A stretch of 64,000 bases of DNA from positions 1,579,819 to 1,643,818 of the forward strand of contig NZ_CP072642.1 in assembly GCF_018304765.1 (NCBI RefSeq), written 5' to 3'. A program made the position numbers and the translations under genes. The notes beneath the pieces were generated by a model. That model did not search any database, had not been told where the DNA came from, and saw nothing but the letters and a program-made list of their open reading frames with translations. Positions 30,927 through 38,646 of this stretch are shown here, piece by piece. The stretch comes from Chloracidobacterium sp. N (lineage in GTDB: Bacteria > Acidobacteriota > Blastocatellia > Chloracidobacteriales > Chloracidobacteriaceae). Within the stretch, counting starts at the first letter, position 1. Each line of letters opens with the position of its first letter.

Positions 30927-31988
30927 ATGGTTGAAGGTCATCTGGAAAATCCACACGACCGCTTCTTCAAGGACCTGCTCGGCCGGCCCGGCGTCGCCGC
31001 CGACTTTCTGGCGAATTACCTGCCCCCGGAGTTGCTTGCCCACCTGGATGTCACGGACCCGGAGGCGCTGTCCGGCACCTTTGTGGACGACGACTTGCGG
31101 GAGCACCTTTCTGACGCCCTGTTTCGCGTGCGTGACCGGACCGGAGCGGCGGCGCTGGTGTACGTCCTGCTCGAACACAAAAGCACCCCCTGGCCGTGGA
31201 CGCCGCTTCAGCTTTTGCGGTACGTCGTCGCCATCTGGGAACAGGCGCGACGCGAAGGCCACACCTCCCTGCCGGTCATCATTCCGGTGGTGTTCTATCA
31301 CGGGCAGACGCGCTGGAACGTGGCCACGGACGTTGCCGGGCTGGTGGCACACCACGACGAGCCGGCGCTGCGCGCCTGGACGCCCTCTTTCCGGTACTGG
31401 CTGTGTGACCTGTCCCGCTTCAGCCCGGAAGTCATCAAAGGCGGGGCCCTGTTGCGGGCTGGCTTATCGGTGTTACGTTATGTCTTTACCGATGAGCTGC
31501 CGGAGCGGCTGCGGGAGATTTTTCAGCTCATTGCCCTGCTGGAGCAGCAGAGTGTGACAGAATATCTGGGAACGGTGCTGCGGTATCTGGCCGCTACCGG
31601 AACCCCCCTTCGGTGGCAAACCGTCAAGACAGCCGCCAAAGAAGCCTTGAAGGAGCAGGCAGAAGCACTTATGAAAGCGCCATTTGTGACAGAAATCTGG
31701 CAGGAAGCCTTGGCACAAGGTCTGGAGCAAGGTCGGGAGCAAGGTCGGGAGCAAGGCCACGCCCAAGGGAGTGAACAGGGCAAACGGCTCGAAGCCCTGC
31801 ACATTGTTCTGCGCCAACTCCGGCGGCGCGTCGGGCCGCTTCCGCCTGAGCTGGAGTCCACGCTCACGACCTTTCCCCTGGAAACCCTGGAAGCCCTGAG
31901 CGAGGCGCTGCTGGACTTCCAGACGCAGGCGGAAGCCTTGGCCTGGGTGCAGCAGGCACAGCACCAGACACCGCCTCGTGCCGAATAA
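30927..31988 (+). CDS. Rpn-family PD-(D/E)XK nuclease / transposase-like protein
   Basis: This 353-residue protein opens HDRFFKDLLGRPGVAADFL, the Rpn/YhgA opening, and has the nuclease core SDALFRVR plus LVYVLLEHKS (E-x-K) near residues 68-92. Rpn proteins cut DNA and promote recA-independent recombination, and are often linked to mobile DNA or phage defence. Near residues 264-290 a short repeat EQGREQGREQGHAQGSEQG forms a charged linker typical of the family. No inverted repeats or target duplications flank it. It is unrelated to the cytochrome genes upstream and ychF downstream. Confidence 0.88.
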   Translation: MVEGHLENPHDRFFKDLLGRPGVAADFLANYLPPELLAHLDVTDPEALSGTFVDDDLREHLSDALFRVRDRTGAAALVYVLLEHKSTPWPWTPLQLLRYVVAIWEQARREGHTSLPVIIPVVFYHGQTRWNVATDVAGLVAHHDEPALRAWTPSFRYWLCDLSRFSPEVIKGGALLRAGLSVLRYVFTDELPERLREIFQLIALLEQQSVTEYLGTVLRYLAATGTPLRWQTVKTAAKEALKEQAEALMKAPFVTEIWQEALAQGLEQGREQGREQGHAQGSEQGKRLEALHIVLRQLRRRVGPLPPELESTLTTFPLETLEALSEALLDFQTQAEALAWVQQAQHQTPPRAE

Positions 31989-32015: not shown

Positions 32016-33074
32016 ATGAAAGTAGGCATCGTCGGCTTCGCCGGCGCCGGCAAAACCACTGTCTTCAACGCCCTGACGGGCCTGACGGCCGAAGTTGGCG
32101 GCTACGGCAGCAAGGAACGCCCCAACCTTGGCAACATCAAAGTCCCGGATGCCCGCGTGGACACCCTGGGCGACATCTACCGCACCAGAAAACGCACCTA
32201 CGCGGAAGTCGCTTTTGTGGACGTGGCCGGCCCGGCCGAACAGCACAGCACAACCGGGCTGGATGCCAAACTCGTCACGGCGATGCGCGATGTGGATGCC
32301 CTGGCCCACGTCGTACGGGCCTTCCCTGACCCACTGGGAACCCGACCGACCGACCCGGCGGCCGACATCGCCAGCTTTGATGCCGAACTCATGCTCTCTG
32401 ATCTGATCCAGGTGGAAAACCGTCTGGCGCGTCTCAAAAAGGACCAGAAAGCGACACCCCAGGAACGGGCGCTGTTTGAGCGGTGCCACTCCGCCCTCGA
32501 CGCCGGACAACCGCTTCGGTCGCTGGATTTCGATGACGAAGAACGCCAGCTTATGGCCGGTTTCCGGTTTCTTTCACTCAAGCCACAGATGATTTTGCTC
32601 AACGTGGCGGAAGCTGACGTGGCGGCCGGTGTCCCGCCAGCCATCCAGGAAGCGGCTCGGACGCGGGCGATCCCGACATTCGTCGCCATGTGCGGGCAAA
32701 CGGAAATGGACATCGCCCAGCTTGACCCGGCGGAACAGGCAGAGTTCCTGCGTGACCTGGGGCTGACCGCCCCGGCGCGGGACCGCTTCATTGTGGCCGC
32801 CTACGGGCTGCTCGACCTCATCAGTTTCCTGACGGCCGGCGAGGACGAATGCCGCGCCTGGCCTGTCCGGCGTGGGACCAAAGCCCAGCGGGCCGCCGGA
32901 AAGATTCACTCGGACATTGAACGCGGGTTTATCCGCGCCGAAGTCATTGCCTACGAGGACTTCATCAGCCACGGCTCGGAAGCCAGGTGCAAGGAAGCCG
33001 GCAAGCTTCGCCTCGAAGGCAAAGACTACGTCGTCCGGGACGGCGACATCATCCACTTCCGGTTCAATGTCTGA
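32016..33074 (+). CDS. ychF: YchF/OLA1-family P-loop NTPase
   Basis: This 352-residue protein begins MKVGIVGFAGAGKTTVFNAL, where GFAGAGKTT replaces the more common GxPNVGKST loop. The switch region FVDVAGPA and the base-recognition motif NVAE (in place of NKxD) mark the YchF group, which prefers ATP. The C-terminal part ends in a TGS domain (RAEVIAYEDF to VVRDGDIIHFRF). YchF binds ribosomes and down-regulates oxidative stress responses in other bacteria. The length is normal (about 360). Upstream spacing of 27 bp to the rpn gene may be incidental. Confidence 0.92.
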   Translation: MKVGIVGFAGAGKTTVFNALTGLTAEVGGYGSKERPNLGNIKVPDARVDTLGDIYRTRKRTYAEVAFVDVAGPAEQHSTTGLDAKLVTAMRDVDALAHVVRAFPDPLGTRPTDPAADIASFDAELMLSDLIQVENRLARLKKDQKATPQERALFERCHSALDAGQPLRSLDFDDEERQLMAGFRFLSLKPQMILLNVAEADVAAGVPPAIQEAARTRAIPTFVAMCGQTEMDIAQLDPAEQAEFLRDLGLTAPARDRFIVAAYGLLDLISFLTAGEDECRAWPVRRGTKAQRAAGKIHSDIERGFIRAEVIAYEDFISHGSEARCKEAGKLRLEGKDYVVRDGDIIHFRFNV

Positions 33075-33417: not shown

Positions 33418-34455
33418 TTATAACACCCAGTTGAAGACGTATCCCACGATCAAAATGCCGGTGGCGACGATGCCAATGAAGGCAGCTATCAGCCTGACTT
33501 TGAGCACCTTGCGCAGAATCACCATCTCTGGCAGGGACAACGCGATGACGCTCATCATAAAGGCCAGCACTGTGCCGACGGCTGCCCCCTTGTCCAGCAG
33601 TGCCTGAACCACCGGAATGATCCCGGCAGCGTTGGTGTACATCGGAACACCAAGCACAACCGCCAGCGGCACCGACCACCAGGCGGATTTGCCCATGAAG
33701 CTGGCCATGAAGTCCTGCGGCACATAGCCGTGAATGCCAGCCCCAATGGCAATGCCGGCCAGAATATACGGCCAGACCTTCCCGACGATGTCGCGCACAC
33801 TTTGAAAGCCGGCGGCGAGACGTTCACCAAAGTCAACCTCCACGGCGGTGAACTGGGCTTCAGCTCTGGGAATGTCGCGCACCCAGTCTTCCAGATACGG
33901 CTCCATGTTCAACTTGCCGATGATCAAGCCAGCCACGATGGCCACGGATAAACCAAGTCCCAGATACAGCAGGGCGATTTTCCAGCCCAGCATGCCAAAC
34001 AGGAGCGTCAGGGCAACCTCATTGACCATCGGGGCGGCAATCAGGAATGAGAATGTCACACCAAGCGGCACCCCGGCCTGTAAAAAGCCGATAAACAACG
34101 GCACGGCTGAACACGAACAGAAGGGCGTCACAATTCCCAGCAAAGCCGCCATGACATTGGCCAGCCCCTCTCTCCGACCAGCCAGCAGGGCGCGGGTTCG
34201 CTCAGGCGTGAAATAGGTATTAATCACCCCCATCACAAAGACAATGCCCGTCAGTAGCAGCAGCACCTTGGGCGTGTCGTAGAGGAAAAATTGCAACGTC
34301 GCACCAAGGTGGCTTTGGCGGTCAACCGGCAAAGCAGCCACTACCACTTCTGAAAGGGGCTGCAAGGTTTGATACAGGCCCCACCACAGCAGGGCCGCCA
34401 GGACAAGAAAGATTCGCGGGTGGTGTTGTGTCCAACGCACAGCCAGGGCACTCAT
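33418..34455 (-). CDS. DUF318/YraQ-type permease
   Basis: This 345-residue protein has about eight to ten hydrophobic segments. The motif GIVTPFCSCSAVPLFIGF, with paired Cys, and APMVNEVALTLL are characteristic of DUF318 permeases, which include arsenical and metal or sulfur-compound exporters. The ATG at 34455 is chosen because GGGGGAGAG lies just before it. It is followed by the mini-thioredoxin gene and preceded by a SigZ-like sigma factor. The substrate is not determined. Confidence 0.87.
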   Translation of the reverse strand: MSALAVRWTQHHPRIFLVLAALLWWGLYQTLQPLSEVVVAALPVDRQSHLGATLQFFLYDTPKVLLLLTGIVFVMGVINTYFTPERTRALLAGRREGLANVMAALLGIVTPFCSCSAVPLFIGFLQAGVPLGVTFSFLIAAPMVNEVALTLLFGMLGWKIALLYLGLGLSVAIVAGLIIGKLNMEPYLEDWVRDIPRAEAQFTAVEVDFGERLAAGFQSVRDIVGKVWPYILAGIAIGAGIHGYVPQDFMASFMGKSAWWSVPLAVVLGVPMYTNAAGIIPVVQALLDKGAAVGTVLAFMMSVIALSLPEMVILRKVLKVRLIAAFIGIVATGILIVGYVFNWVL

Positions 34456-34540
34456 GGCTCTCTCCCCCATTGTTCTCGGCAGCACAAAATCACTGGCTAG
34501 CAGCCATCTGTCAGGGAGACGAACAAGGTGGCAAAAGGAT

Positions 34541-35098
34541 TCAGGATGCAGCCGAAGGTGACACGTGGCAACAGACGCGCCCGGACTCATCAAAGCGCAC
34601 CTGGCAGTTCTCCACCAGGCGGTCGCGTAATCGTTTTCTGGCGCGCAGCAGGCGCGACTTGGCGGCCGGCAGTGTCAGACCATGGGCTTCGGCGTAGGCG
34701 CGCACCGTTTGCCCCCGAAGATCGCAGGCTTCAATAATGTGCCGGTCCTCGGCTTCCAGTCGCAGCAGGTTGTGGCTGAGACACGCCTCCAGTTCATCTA
34801 CGGGACGCCGTTCCACAACCGGTGCCGCCGCCAGGTGCTCCGGCAAGGACTCAACCGGCTTGGACAGACGCGCCCGGTCAATCACGGCATGACGGGCGAC
34901 CTGGAACAGCCAGGCGCGGGGATTGTCGAGCGCGCAAAACGCCTGCCCCTGCCGCAGGGCCTTGAGAAACACTTCCTGGAGGAGGTCTTCCGCCGCGTCA
35001 GGATCGCTGGTCCGGTGTAACAGAAAAGCCAGCAGGGCTTTTTCGTATGCCTGCCAGGCATCCAGGAGACACCCGGACGCGCTATGTGCCTGGTTCAT
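34541..35098 (-). CDS. SigZ-like ECF sigma factor
   Basis: This 185-residue protein has sigma region 2 (DPDAAEDLLQEVFLKAL with DNPRAWLFQVARHAVIDRAR, cited in pieces) and region 4 (LRGQTVRAYAEAHGLTLPAAKSRLLRARKRL, cited by AAKSRLLRARKRL). It ends with a Cys-containing tail (RVCCHVSPSAAS), a feature I associate with SigZ-type factors. The start is placed at MNQAHSASG (35098); an upstream ATG at 35167 would add 23 residues. No anti-sigma gene adjoins. The C-terminal Cys pair and thiol-rich neighbours suggest redox or metal sensing (inference). Confidence 0.82.
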   Translation of the reverse strand: MNQAHSASGCLLDAWQAYEKALLAFLLHRTSDPDAAEDLLQEVFLKALRQGQAFCALDNPRAWLFQVARHAVIDRARLSKPVESLPEHLAAAPVVERRPVDELEACLSHNLLRLEAEDRHIIEACDLRGQTVRAYAEAHGLTLPAAKSRLLRARKRLRDRLVENCQVRFDESGRVCCHVSPSAAS

Positions 35099-35313
35099 GA
35101 TTTTCGTACCACGGTTTTTTGGCCACGGTTTTTTGGCATTGTTGGCTGGCGTTGACGGCTCTGACAACCAGACTTTGACAGCTCTTGAGGCGCAATGGCA
35201 TCCTCACTGACTTTGGGCCAGTGGCTTTGGCCAACCATGACCACTATGGAATGTGGTCGCTTTGGATGTCCAGTCAAGGTCACGCCCCCTCCCCAAGTAC
35301 AGGATGCGCGGCC

Positions 35314-35529
35314 ATGACCTCCATCATCTGGGAATCGCAACTTACCTGCCCGGTCTGTGGGGCAACCACGGTGGAAACCATGCCGGCCAACGCCTGCCAG
35401 TTTTCTTACACCTGTGACACCTGTGAGACCCAGTTACGCCCGCAACCCGGTGACTGCTGTGTGTTCTGCTCATTCGGTTCAGTTCCCTGCCCACCGGTTC
35501 AGTTGATGCAGCATTCTGACCAACCGTGA
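35314..35529 (+). CDS. GDCCVxC-motif small Cys-rich protein
   Basis: This 71-residue protein has two CxxC pairs (CPVCG, CDTCE) and the strongly conserved end GDCCVFCSFGSVPCPP. That ending defines the GDCCVxC domain family, in which some members are selenoproteins; here Cys codons are used throughout. The start is the ATG of MTSIIWESQL (35314). It is transcribed away from the sigma factor, permease and thioredoxin-like genes. The family commonly sits near mercury or other metal transport and thiol genes, so a metal-binding role is likely but unproven. Confidence 0.85.
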   Translation: MTSIIWESQLTCPVCGATTVETMPANACQFSYTCDTCETQLRPQPGDCCVFCSFGSVPCPPVQLMQHSDQP

Positions 35530-36547: not shown

Positions 36548-37648
36548 ATGATTGCCACGGAATCCGTCATTCAGGAGACGAAAGCGGCGGCGGCAGACAA
36601 AAGTCTCATCAGTCCGCGTTTTTATGTCACGGATTACAAGAAGATGAATGCCCTGCGGTTCGATCACATGGCCGAAGCGTTCAAAGCCATGCACAAACGC
36701 TTTGCCGATGATCCGAACAAGCATTTCTTCAAACGGGACGACGACCCGGACTTCGAGCAGGATTTCTCCCATCTTCCGCCGTCGTTCAAGGATTTTCTCA
36801 TTCGTGGTTGTTTGGGCGAGTTTTCGGGGGCGCTGCTGTACAAGGAAATCGCGGACCGCATTGAAGACCCCATCCTGAGCGACACCTACCGGCTGATGGC
36901 GCGCGATGAAGGGCGGCACAGCGGCTTCATCCGGCTGGCGATGCGCGACATCAAGGCTGACCTTGACCTCCAGATGCTGCAGGGCGAAAAGGAATTCGTC
37001 AGCATGCATCCGAAAATCATCCTCTACACCACGTACCTTTCGGAAGTCATCGGCTACTTCCGCTACATCAACATCTATTCCCACCTCGAAGCCCATCCTG
37101 AATACCGTTACCATCCGATCTTCAAGTACTTCGGTGGCTGGTGCCAGGATGAACTCAAGCACGGCGACTTTATCGGTCTTCAGCTCGAAGCCCAGAAAAA
37201 CCTGTACCTGAGCGGCGGCGTCAACCGGACGCTTATCCGCTTCTTCTCGCTGGCCGTCTATGTGACGATGTGGCTGCGTGATCTCAAAGCGCAGGACTTT
37301 TATGCGTCCATCGGCATGAACTGGCGGGAATATGACCTGAAGGTGATCCGGGAAACGAATGCCTATGCCCAGCGCGTGTTTGGGCTGCGGCTCGATGTGG
37401 ATAATCCAAAGTTCATCCGCATTCTGGACCGCATGGCGGCACGTTACACGGAGATGAACAGGCGTGAGGACGAAGGCGCCGGCAAGCTGGCACTCCTGCC
37501 CATGCAGGCGGCCATGGCGGCGGATTATCTGCGTTTGTTTGCCATGAAAGTGCGTACCGATGCACCACCGCCCATCCCCGAATACCCGGTGGCGCCGGTC
37601 ATCAAGGGCTTTGCCAGCCAGTCCAAAGGTCAGCCGGCTATGGCCTGA
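36548..37648 (+). CDS. acsF: Mg-protoporphyrin IX monomethyl ester oxidative cyclase, aerobic
   Basis: This 366-residue di-iron enzyme forms the isocyclic E ring of (bacterio)chlorophyll using oxygen. The start is the ATG of MIATESVIQE at 36548. Two E-x-x-H motifs are visible: RDEGRH (E121-H124) and DELKH (E202-H205). Further Glu residues in GEFSGALLYKEIADR supply the remaining ligands, as in AcsF/CHL27 proteins. Length matches the family. It is followed 11 bp later by a BvdR-like oxidoreductase gene, implying co-transcription. Its presence shows that the organism makes chlorophyll under oxic conditions. No bch genes adjoin, so pigment genes are dispersed. Confidence 0.95.
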   Translation: MIATESVIQETKAAAADKSLISPRFYVTDYKKMNALRFDHMAEAFKAMHKRFADDPNKHFFKRDDDPDFEQDFSHLPPSFKDFLIRGCLGEFSGALLYKEIADRIEDPILSDTYRLMARDEGRHSGFIRLAMRDIKADLDLQMLQGEKEFVSMHPKIILYTTYLSEVIGYFRYINIYSHLEAHPEYRYHPIFKYFGGWCQDELKHGDFIGLQLEAQKNLYLSGGVNRTLIRFFSLAVYVTMWLRDLKAQDFYASIGMNWREYDLKVIRETNAYAQRVFGLRLDVDNPKFIRILDRMAARYTEMNRREDEGAGKLALLPMQAAMAADYLRLFAMKVRTDAPPPIPEYPVAPVIKGFASQSKGQPAMA

Positions 37649-37659
37649 GGGCAATTTCC

Positions 37660-38646
37660 ATGCCCACCGTTCTTGGTATTGCCATTCTGGGCAGCGGGCG
37701 CGTCGCACGCGCCCGCCTACGCGAGCTCCACGAGCGCTTTGATACCCGTGTGGCCGTCGTCGCCTCCCACGACTTCAATCGGGCCTACGAACTGGCATTC
37801 CCGATTGCGGCGGCAGCCACTGAAGACTGGGAGGAAGCCATTGCGCGCCCGGATGTGGATGCCGTCATGGTGTGTTCGACCAACCCGCACCATGCCCGCA
37901 TGGCACAGGCGGCAATTGCGGCCGGCAAACCGGTCAGTGTGGACTACCCGCTGGCGCTGACGCTCACCGACGCCGAACAGTTGGTCGAACAGTCCCGGGC
38001 GCGTGGCGTCGTGCTGCACGTCGAACACATTGAGCTGCTCTCAGCCTGGTTCGAGGCTTTTCGGAAAGCCCTGCCCCGCATCGGGCGAGTCCACCACATC
38101 ACCTGGAACAACCTCAGCTCCCGCCCGGCAGCCCCCGAAGACTGGACGTTTGACCGCGCACACGGCTTCTCGCTGTTCCAGCAGGCCAGTGTGCCCAGCC
38201 GCATCGTCGCCTGCGTGGGACAAATCACCTGGATTGAAGGCGAGGAAACGTTTTCCGATGAGCAGGGCACCCGCTTTGGGCGGCGTGCCACGCATCTGCG
38301 CTTCGGCTTCGGCGCAGAAGGCCGTGGAGACATCAACGATGTGCTCACCCGGCACGAGGAAACAGGGCCGGCGGCCGAATTACAGGCCGTGGGCGAGTCC
38401 GGCACACTCATCGGACGACAACACCGGGAGGTGTGGTACACGAACCCGGATGGCGCTACTGAGGCCGTGCCGGTCATGCCACGCAGTGGTCTGTTTGCCC
38501 ACGACATCACGGCGTTCCTCGACGCCATTGCCGGTCGCGGAACGCCGTATGTCTCTCTCGACCATGTACTTGAAGCTCTCCGTTTTGCCGATGCCGCCGA
38601 ACGGGCGGTGAAAAGCGGTCAGCGGGTCACGCTGACATCGGACTGA
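37660..38646 (+). CDS. Biliverdin-reductase-like Gfo/Idh/MocA oxidoreductase
   Basis: This 328-residue protein has an N-terminal Rossmann dinucleotide site (ILGSGRVARARL, residues 9-20) and the segment VSVDYPLALTL. The sequence VLHVEHIELL (residues 118-127) closely resembles cyanobacterial BvdR as I remember it. The C-terminal alpha/beta domain ends SLDHVLEALRFADAAERAV, again as in BvdR. BvdR reduces biliverdin IX alpha to bilirubin with NADPH. The gene starts 11 bp after acsF. The reaction could be on a bilin, or on a tetrapyrrole intermediate of the cyclase pathway. No heme oxygenase gene is in the window. Confidence 0.83.
   Translation: MPTVLGIAILGSGRVARARLRELHERFDTRVAVVASHDFNRAYELAFPIAAAATEDWEEAIARPDVDAVMVCSTNPHHARMAQAAIAAGKPVSVDYPLALTLTDAEQLVEQSRARGVVLHVEHIELLSAWFEAFRKALPRIGRVHHITWNNLSSRPAAPEDWTFDRAHGFSLFQQASVPSRIVACVGQITWIEGEETFSDEQGTRFGRRATHLRFGFGAEGRGDINDVLTRHEETGPAAELQAVGESGTLIGRQHREVWYTNPDGATEAVPVMPRSGLFAHDITAFLDAIAGRGTPYVSLDHVLEALRFADAAERAVKSGQRVTLTSD

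Follow-up and report, generated by a model that had tools for sequence, protein, structure and literature searches.

The acsF locus and the product of its second gene

Two genes on the forward strand stand side by side in the window, the 64,000-nucleotide stretch of Chloracidobacterium sp. N DNA that was analysed, and form a two-gene unit (Table 1). The first is acsF. Its product scores above the equivalog cut-off of TIGR02029 and carries both di-iron motifs at exactly the positions given in the original prediction; it misses the subfamily model NF010172, where 391 bits are needed and 358.9 are reached. The start has been set at the ATG at 36548, and a longer ORF that opens with TTG extends from 36491. 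According to PMC12816986, acsF is missing from most strains of C. aggregatum, MS40/45 being the exception, whereas the gene is intact in the strain N genome, which bears the label "C. aggregatum". PMC8245765 describes all strains as able to use both AcsF and BchE.

The second gene follows at the distance that had been predicted. A GAGGG sequence (37647–37651), picked out by eye, overlaps the stop of acsF and lies 8 nt before the next ATG; it is a candidate ribosome site and, again by eye, is not kept in all relatives. The encoded protein has an N-terminal Rossmann domain, PF01408 (75.2 bits, cut-off 24, E 8.9e-21), and the C-terminal domain PF02894 stays below its cut-off (19.8 versus 22.9 bits). 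Nine NCBIfam models touch the protein, that for inositol dehydrogenase included, and none reaches its cut-off. Pfam finds NAD(P)-binding oxidoreductase domains only, with no flavin or Fe-S domain. The genome of strain N (3,715,176 bases, 2 contigs) contains no close paralogue, the next match having E 2.7e-8.

Sequence and predicted structure both point to biliverdin reductase, BvdR, as the nearest relative. The best match among solved structures is Synechocystis BvdR, 5b3t (E 4.2e-32 over residues 4–316; the next match has E 9.8e-16). An AlphaFold2 model built from 40 aligned sequences has a mean pLDDT of 92.9 and a pTM of 0.89, and its top fold match is 5b3v_B (E 3.9e-30, TM 0.88/0.92). Superposition on BvdR gives Z 37.1 and an rmsd of 2.1 over 313 residues at 26% identity; the whole fold is alike, and the HVEHIELL segment is common to both proteins. 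The leading matches are ligand-bound structures of BvdR, apo BvdR ranks only 29th (Z 31.9), and other Gfo/Idh/MocA enzymes are close behind at Z 34.8 and below, so that the fold alone does not settle function. A tree supports the kinship: the acidobacterial and cyanobacterial proteins form two sister clades (support 100/99 and 98/98), rooted with seven other oxidoreductases whose long branches call for caution.

Table 1. Features of the acsF locus, numbered from the first letter of the window
Feature	Position	Strand	Basis
acsF	36548..37648	+	TIGR02029 331.6 bits, cut-off 192.5; di-iron motifs E121-x-x-H124 and E202-x-x-H205
Intergenic gap, 11 bp	37649..37659	+	coordinates of both ORFs
Gene for a BvdR-fold Gfo/Idh/MocA oxidoreductase, 328 aa, of an acidobacterial clade with a putatively altered substrate pocket	37660..38646	+	PF01408, 5b3t, AlphaFold2 model, 5b3v_B
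Asp95 codon (VDYP), at the Glu101 position of BvdR	37942..37944	+	first alignment
Val178 codon, at the Arg185 position of Synechocystis BvdR	38191..38193	+	two alignments and HMMER register
Arg209 codon, at the Cys217 position of BvdR	38284..38286	+	first alignment

Conservation of the pair

The survey covered 39 genomes, those of strain N and 38 relatives, with one genome per species. The bvdR-like gene (E < 1e-70) is present in 11 and acsF in eight; bchM passes its cut-off in the same eight. Conservation of the neighbourhood had been set beforehand as a refutation test, and the two genes proved to be adjacent and on one strand in every genome with acsF (8/8, strain N included). Seven of these genomes are from Chloracidobacterium, with gaps of 11, 11, 9, 1, 9, 11 and 10 bp. 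Their region is syntenic around the pair, where the contig allows a look, and the seven cases are therefore not independent. The eighth genome, G008, is of another genus in the Chloracidobacterium family. Its gap measures 137 bp, its bvdR-like protein is 53% identical, none of the five ORFs that follow it downstream matches a gene of the window, and the upstream side is a contig end.

Some features of these regions deserve mention in their own right. Within the G008 gap (L030:1396-1532) an inverted repeat, CCCGCTTTAGCGGGG / CCCCGCTAAAGCGGG, can be seen by eye, which would fit the entry of a repeat element into the operon. The record of the pair from the other genus (L053) is titled as an Actinomycetota MAG and has a scaffold named Acidobacteria; G008 is placed in the Chloracidobacterium family. 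In the window, the block at 33418–35529 (an ArsP-like permease, a sigma-70 family factor and a small ORF), between the gene at 32016–33074 and lepB, stands at the same place in G001 and not in G002, G004, G005 and G006, which suggests insertion or loss. A putative YhgA-like transposase (PF04754) with DUF4351, at 30927–31988, is likewise present in G001 and not in the same four genomes. The neighbour comparison used greedy gene calls, some of them in wrong frames in G+C-rich DNA, which served for homology only.

Both genes are constrained, given their low dN relative to dS. Against G001, the nearest genome compared, dN and dS (NG86) are 0.011 and 0.135 for the bvdR-like gene and 0.022 and 0.214 for acsF; only this closest pair is quoted because dS exceeds 1, and is saturated, in wider comparisons. 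A sample of 396 genomes from the phylum, with three of the seven Chloracidobacterium genomes and not G008 among them, has acsF over the cut-off in three genomes and the bvdR-like gene in five, and yields no further genus with either. The same 11 holders, and no further genus, came from a search of 162 genomes of the class. Cyanobacterial bvdR is not accompanied by acsF at any of 74 loci (from the best 80 of 373 relatives), about 10 kb being available on both sides of 38 loci and at least 3 kb in 57.

Three holders, G009, G011 and G013 (99%, 95% and 87% complete), have no cut-off match for acsF or bchM. The 17 ORFs around their orthologs include genes for mnmE, ferritin, redoxin, a band-7 protein and a peptidase, and no tetrapyrrole gene was recognised among the 17. 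In the gene tree (L027, L028, L029) the G009 protein lies outside the G011/G013 group, and G009 shares the family of Chloracidobacterium; transfer or paralogy is possible.

The active site compared with that of Synechocystis BvdR

Two alignments were used. The first contains Synechocystis BvdR, 74 cyanobacterial loci and the 11 acidobacterial proteins; two peptide patterns drawn from our own alignment matched 373 relatives, and the 74 loci are what remained of the best 80. The second, made with MAFFT from another set, contains 33 cyanobacterial and seven acidobacterial proteins.

Two segments typical of cyanobacterial BvdR had been predicted, and the protein does contain VVLHVEHIELL and VDYPLALTL. 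The second is only partly typical, however, for the position of its aspartate, that of Glu101, is Asp in 11/11 acidobacterial proteins and Glu at 73 of the 74 cyanobacterial loci (best 80 of 373). The tyrosine of the (E)YP motif, Tyr102 of BvdR, which faces C10 of biliverdin, is kept as Tyr96 in all 11.

The active-site comparison that had been proposed goes against biliverdin reductase at the catalytic arginine, Arg185 in Synechocystis and Arg172 in the human enzyme. Its column in the first alignment holds valine in five, isoleucine in two and leucine in four acidobacterial proteins, replaced in all 11, and arginine at 73 of the 74 cyanobacterial loci (best 80 of 373), with histidine at the other. 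The second alignment has arginine in 33/33 cyanobacterial proteins versus valine, leucine or isoleucine in 7/7 acidobacterial ones. HMMER aligns the protein to 5b3t in the same ungapped register, with Val178 opposite Arg185. In the AlphaFold2 model Val178 is the second residue of a predicted helix, 177–186, which agrees with PMC5309722, where Arg185 stands at the start of helix α8. The same source reports that Arg185 is essential and that its conservation across BVR homologues is complete, and gives kcat/Km values of 3.9 per s per µM for wild type, 0.1 for R185A and 0.07 for R185K. Because R185A keeps a kcat of 0.7 per s, versus 7.1, loss of this arginine alone need not abolish activity.

Other differences accompany this one. 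The position of Arg167, an NADP contact, is Asp161 in 11/11 acidobacterial proteins, so that cofactor binding may differ too; Glu101 and Arg167 are both described as touching NADP+ in BvdR. Arg209 is present in all 11, where cysteine occupies the column in 75/75 others (Synechocystis BvdR and the 74 loci from the best 80 of 373). Lys237 and Arg246, found at 73 and 71 of the 74 cyanobacterial loci (best 80 of 373), have no counterpart in the acidobacterial proteins, the alignment being gapped and less certain there. PMC5309722 lists both near biliverdin, together with Thr169, Ser184 and Arg188, and reports K237A and R246A to be active (kcat/Km 4.9 and 2.2, versus 3.9), so that their loss says little about function. 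The cyanobacterial YGKGE segment is missing from the acidobacterial proteins in both alignments. A further 17 columns are nearly fixed in each group and yet different between the groups (at least 10/11 and at least 90%, the cyanobacterial loci being from the best 80 of 373); Glu101, H137 to F, C217 to R and Y235 to D are among them.

Much of the site is nevertheless retained. The HVEHIELL segment and Tyr102, His84, His129, Trp168, Thr169, Arg188 and Asp287 (BvdR numbering) are kept in 11/11. The retention of four of these, Arg188, Tyr102, His84 and Asp287, together with the new invariant Arg209, counts against the reading preferred below. The orthologs of G009, G011 and G013 carry the same active-site substitutions, and the changed pocket is thus not specific to chlorophyll makers; it arose before, or independently of, the link to acsF. 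At 21 positions the eight proteins of the phototrophs are uniform and the other three differ.

Possible functions of the second gene

Judged by its sequence, the protein departs from the biliverdin reductases on a key point of membership, the catalytic arginine. The name biliverdin reductase probably does not apply to it, because all 11 proteins have another residue in place of Arg185 and a search of the holders for a PF01126 heme oxygenase gave no match; reduction of a bilin, one of the roles originally suggested, loses support on both counts. The lack of a heme oxygenase gene that had been noted for the window holds for the whole genome, neither having a PF01126 match, and for all 11 holders, although such a match occurs in three of the 39 genomes. 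A homologue of ferredoxin-dependent bilin reductase (PF05996) is found in 10/39, over the cut-off in nine and just under it in G006. It occurs in nine of the 11 holders, namely all eight phototrophs and G009, and is absent from G011 and G013. One such gene, at L152:6924-7658, scores 45.4 bits, and the ORF after it (L152:7825-8418) has a V4R match below the cut-off, 24.3 versus 31; the two together lie at about 2132420–2133920 of G000:C1, in a genome with no PF01126 match. A PF05996 gene without a PF01126 heme oxygenase is the puzzle raised for pre-PcyA in PMC10151467, where the Chloracidobacterium pre-PcyA cluster is already said to occur without heme oxygenase, with the remark that divergence can hide heme oxygenases from detection. 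This pre-PcyA (pre-1) cluster resembles the bvdR-like gene in being bilin-reductase-like and without heme oxygenase in the same genome; it differs in its family, in being named ferredoxin-dependent and in its place on the chromosome. A bilin made for a phytochrome was rejected, since the PHY domain is absent from all 20 genomes searched, the 11 holders included.

It is distinctly improbable that the protein is a genuine biliverdin reductase that uses another proton donor, such as Arg209 or Arg181, on biliverdin that a non-canonical heme oxygenase, or ring opening without an enzyme, would supply. Its nearest relatives by sequence and fold are BvdR, bilins may exist in the nine holders with a bilin reductase homologue, a heme oxygenase could have escaped detection by divergence, and BvdR stays active after loss of Lys237 or Arg246 and keeps about a tenth of its kcat after loss of Arg185. 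This has to be set against an arginine described as fully conserved in BVR homologues, the fall in kcat/Km when it is replaced, the absence of heme oxygenase and PHY matches, and two holders, G011 and G013, that lack even the bilin reductase homologue. A role beside AcsF raises other considerations. PMC13297055 counts Acidobacteria among the lineages with AcsF as sole cyclase component, has AcsF perform all three cyclase steps with ferredoxin and FNR (NADPH to FNR to ferredoxin), and documents 13(1)-hydroxy and 13(1)-keto intermediates; PMC7570240 likewise derives the electrons of AcsF from ferredoxin/FNR. The suggestion of a reductase for AcsF is therefore unlikely for a protein with no flavin or Fe-S domain; a hydride-transfer enzyme with nicotinamide as its only cofactor would be ill suited to feed electrons to a di-iron site, and direct electron donation was set aside on this mechanism together with the domain content. 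Nor, on the genomic distribution, is the protein a strict cyclase subunit, which would occur only together with acsF, because orthologs that share the substitutions occur in three relatives lacking acsF and bchM. Some partner role is possible. The more specific proposal of an auxiliary or additional enzyme for the acidobacterial cyclase, which would, for instance, use NAD(P)+ to oxidise the 13(1)-hydroxy intermediate, or would stabilise AcsF, in the place of Ycf54 or BciE, seems quite unlikely. The fixed adjacency, the documented intermediates, the 21 positions that set the phototroph proteins apart and the absence of Ycf54 (PF10674) from all 10 genomes searched, seven of the eight with acsF among them (G008 was outside the set), speak for it; the acsF-free orthologs, the published account of AcsF as sole component with ferredoxin/FNR and the domain content speak against it. 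Ycf54 and BciE are tied to AcsF in their own lineages, as the bvdR-like gene is by position, but its product is a 328-residue dehydrogenase-fold protein that also occurs without acsF. Adjacency to a chlorophyll pathway gene would also suit a C8-vinyl reductase or another missing reductase step, a reading that is hardly credible and was set aside. All eight acsF/bchM genomes (among 15 searched) encode a PF04432 (FrhB/FdhB-type) protein, a candidate for the vinyl reductase BciB, which belongs to that family, so that the step is probably not vacant, and three holders have no bchM over the cut-off.

There is a real, if smaller than even, chance that the protein belongs to unrelated metabolism, as an ordinary NAD(P)-dependent oxidoreductase, acsF having landed beside a resident gene of the Blastocatellia with which it came to share an operon. 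The orthologs without acsF and bchM, near mnmE, ferritin and redoxin, fit such a reading, as do the confinement of seven of the eight pairs to one genus with conserved synteny and the many Gfo/Idh/MocA structures that fit the model nearly as well as BvdR does. The pair is kept in another genus, however, at 53% identity and in front of five different ORFs, and no NCBIfam model reaches its cut-off. In sugar dehydrogenases of the Gfo/Idh/MocA superfamily the catalytic residue is the lysine of an EKP motif, whereas the acidobacterial protein retains the tyrosine of BvdR (DYP).

The reading that we prefer, though tentatively and at somewhat short of even confidence, is that the second gene represents a separate acidobacterial branch of BvdR-fold Gfo/Idh/MocA oxidoreductases, likely a hydride-transfer enzyme for the clean-up of oxidised tetrapyrrole-like compounds that is co-transcribed with acsF in Chloracidobacterium. 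Hydride transfer from NAD(P)H would have been retained, as the Rossmann domain, the HVEHIELL segment and the Tyr96 and Trp162 positions are kept. Catalysis would not proceed through a proton relay from Arg185 to a propionate, and the substrate would then not be biliverdin handled in the known way. The enzyme would most likely act as a clean-up or recycling reductase (or dehydrogenase) in an O2-exposed cell, and co-transcription with acsF would tie its production to the times when the O2-dependent route is in use. The leading guess for the substrate is a tetrapyrrole-like by-product in oxidised form. A role in clean-up agrees with the fold, with an O2-using enzyme as neighbour and with the apparent lack of heme oxygenase; since no tetrapyrrole gene was recognised among the 17 ORFs near the acsF-free orthologs, a non-tetrapyrrole substrate is about as possible. 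A bolder version of the clean-up reading is unlikely: a tetrapyrrole oxidoreductase of the Acidobacteriota's own, built on the BvdR scaffold with a changed proton relay, that would act with AcsF on a cyclase intermediate or on oxidised or ring-opened Mg-porphyrin by-products, and would belong with the pre-PcyA homologue to a wider bilin-like chemistry that dispenses with canonical heme oxygenase.

Among the open-access papers searched, none is about the bvdR-like gene, judged by title and opening of the abstract. The acidobacterial AcsF is listed as partner-free in PMC13297055, yet the same gene follows it in all eight acsF genomes found. The protein is also a second orphan relative of bilin enzymes in a lineage reported to be without heme oxygenase, and it warns that overall similarity alone does not suffice for naming proteins biliverdin reductase. 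The fixed pairing makes a role as partner of AcsF, or in the clean-up of pigment, directly testable.
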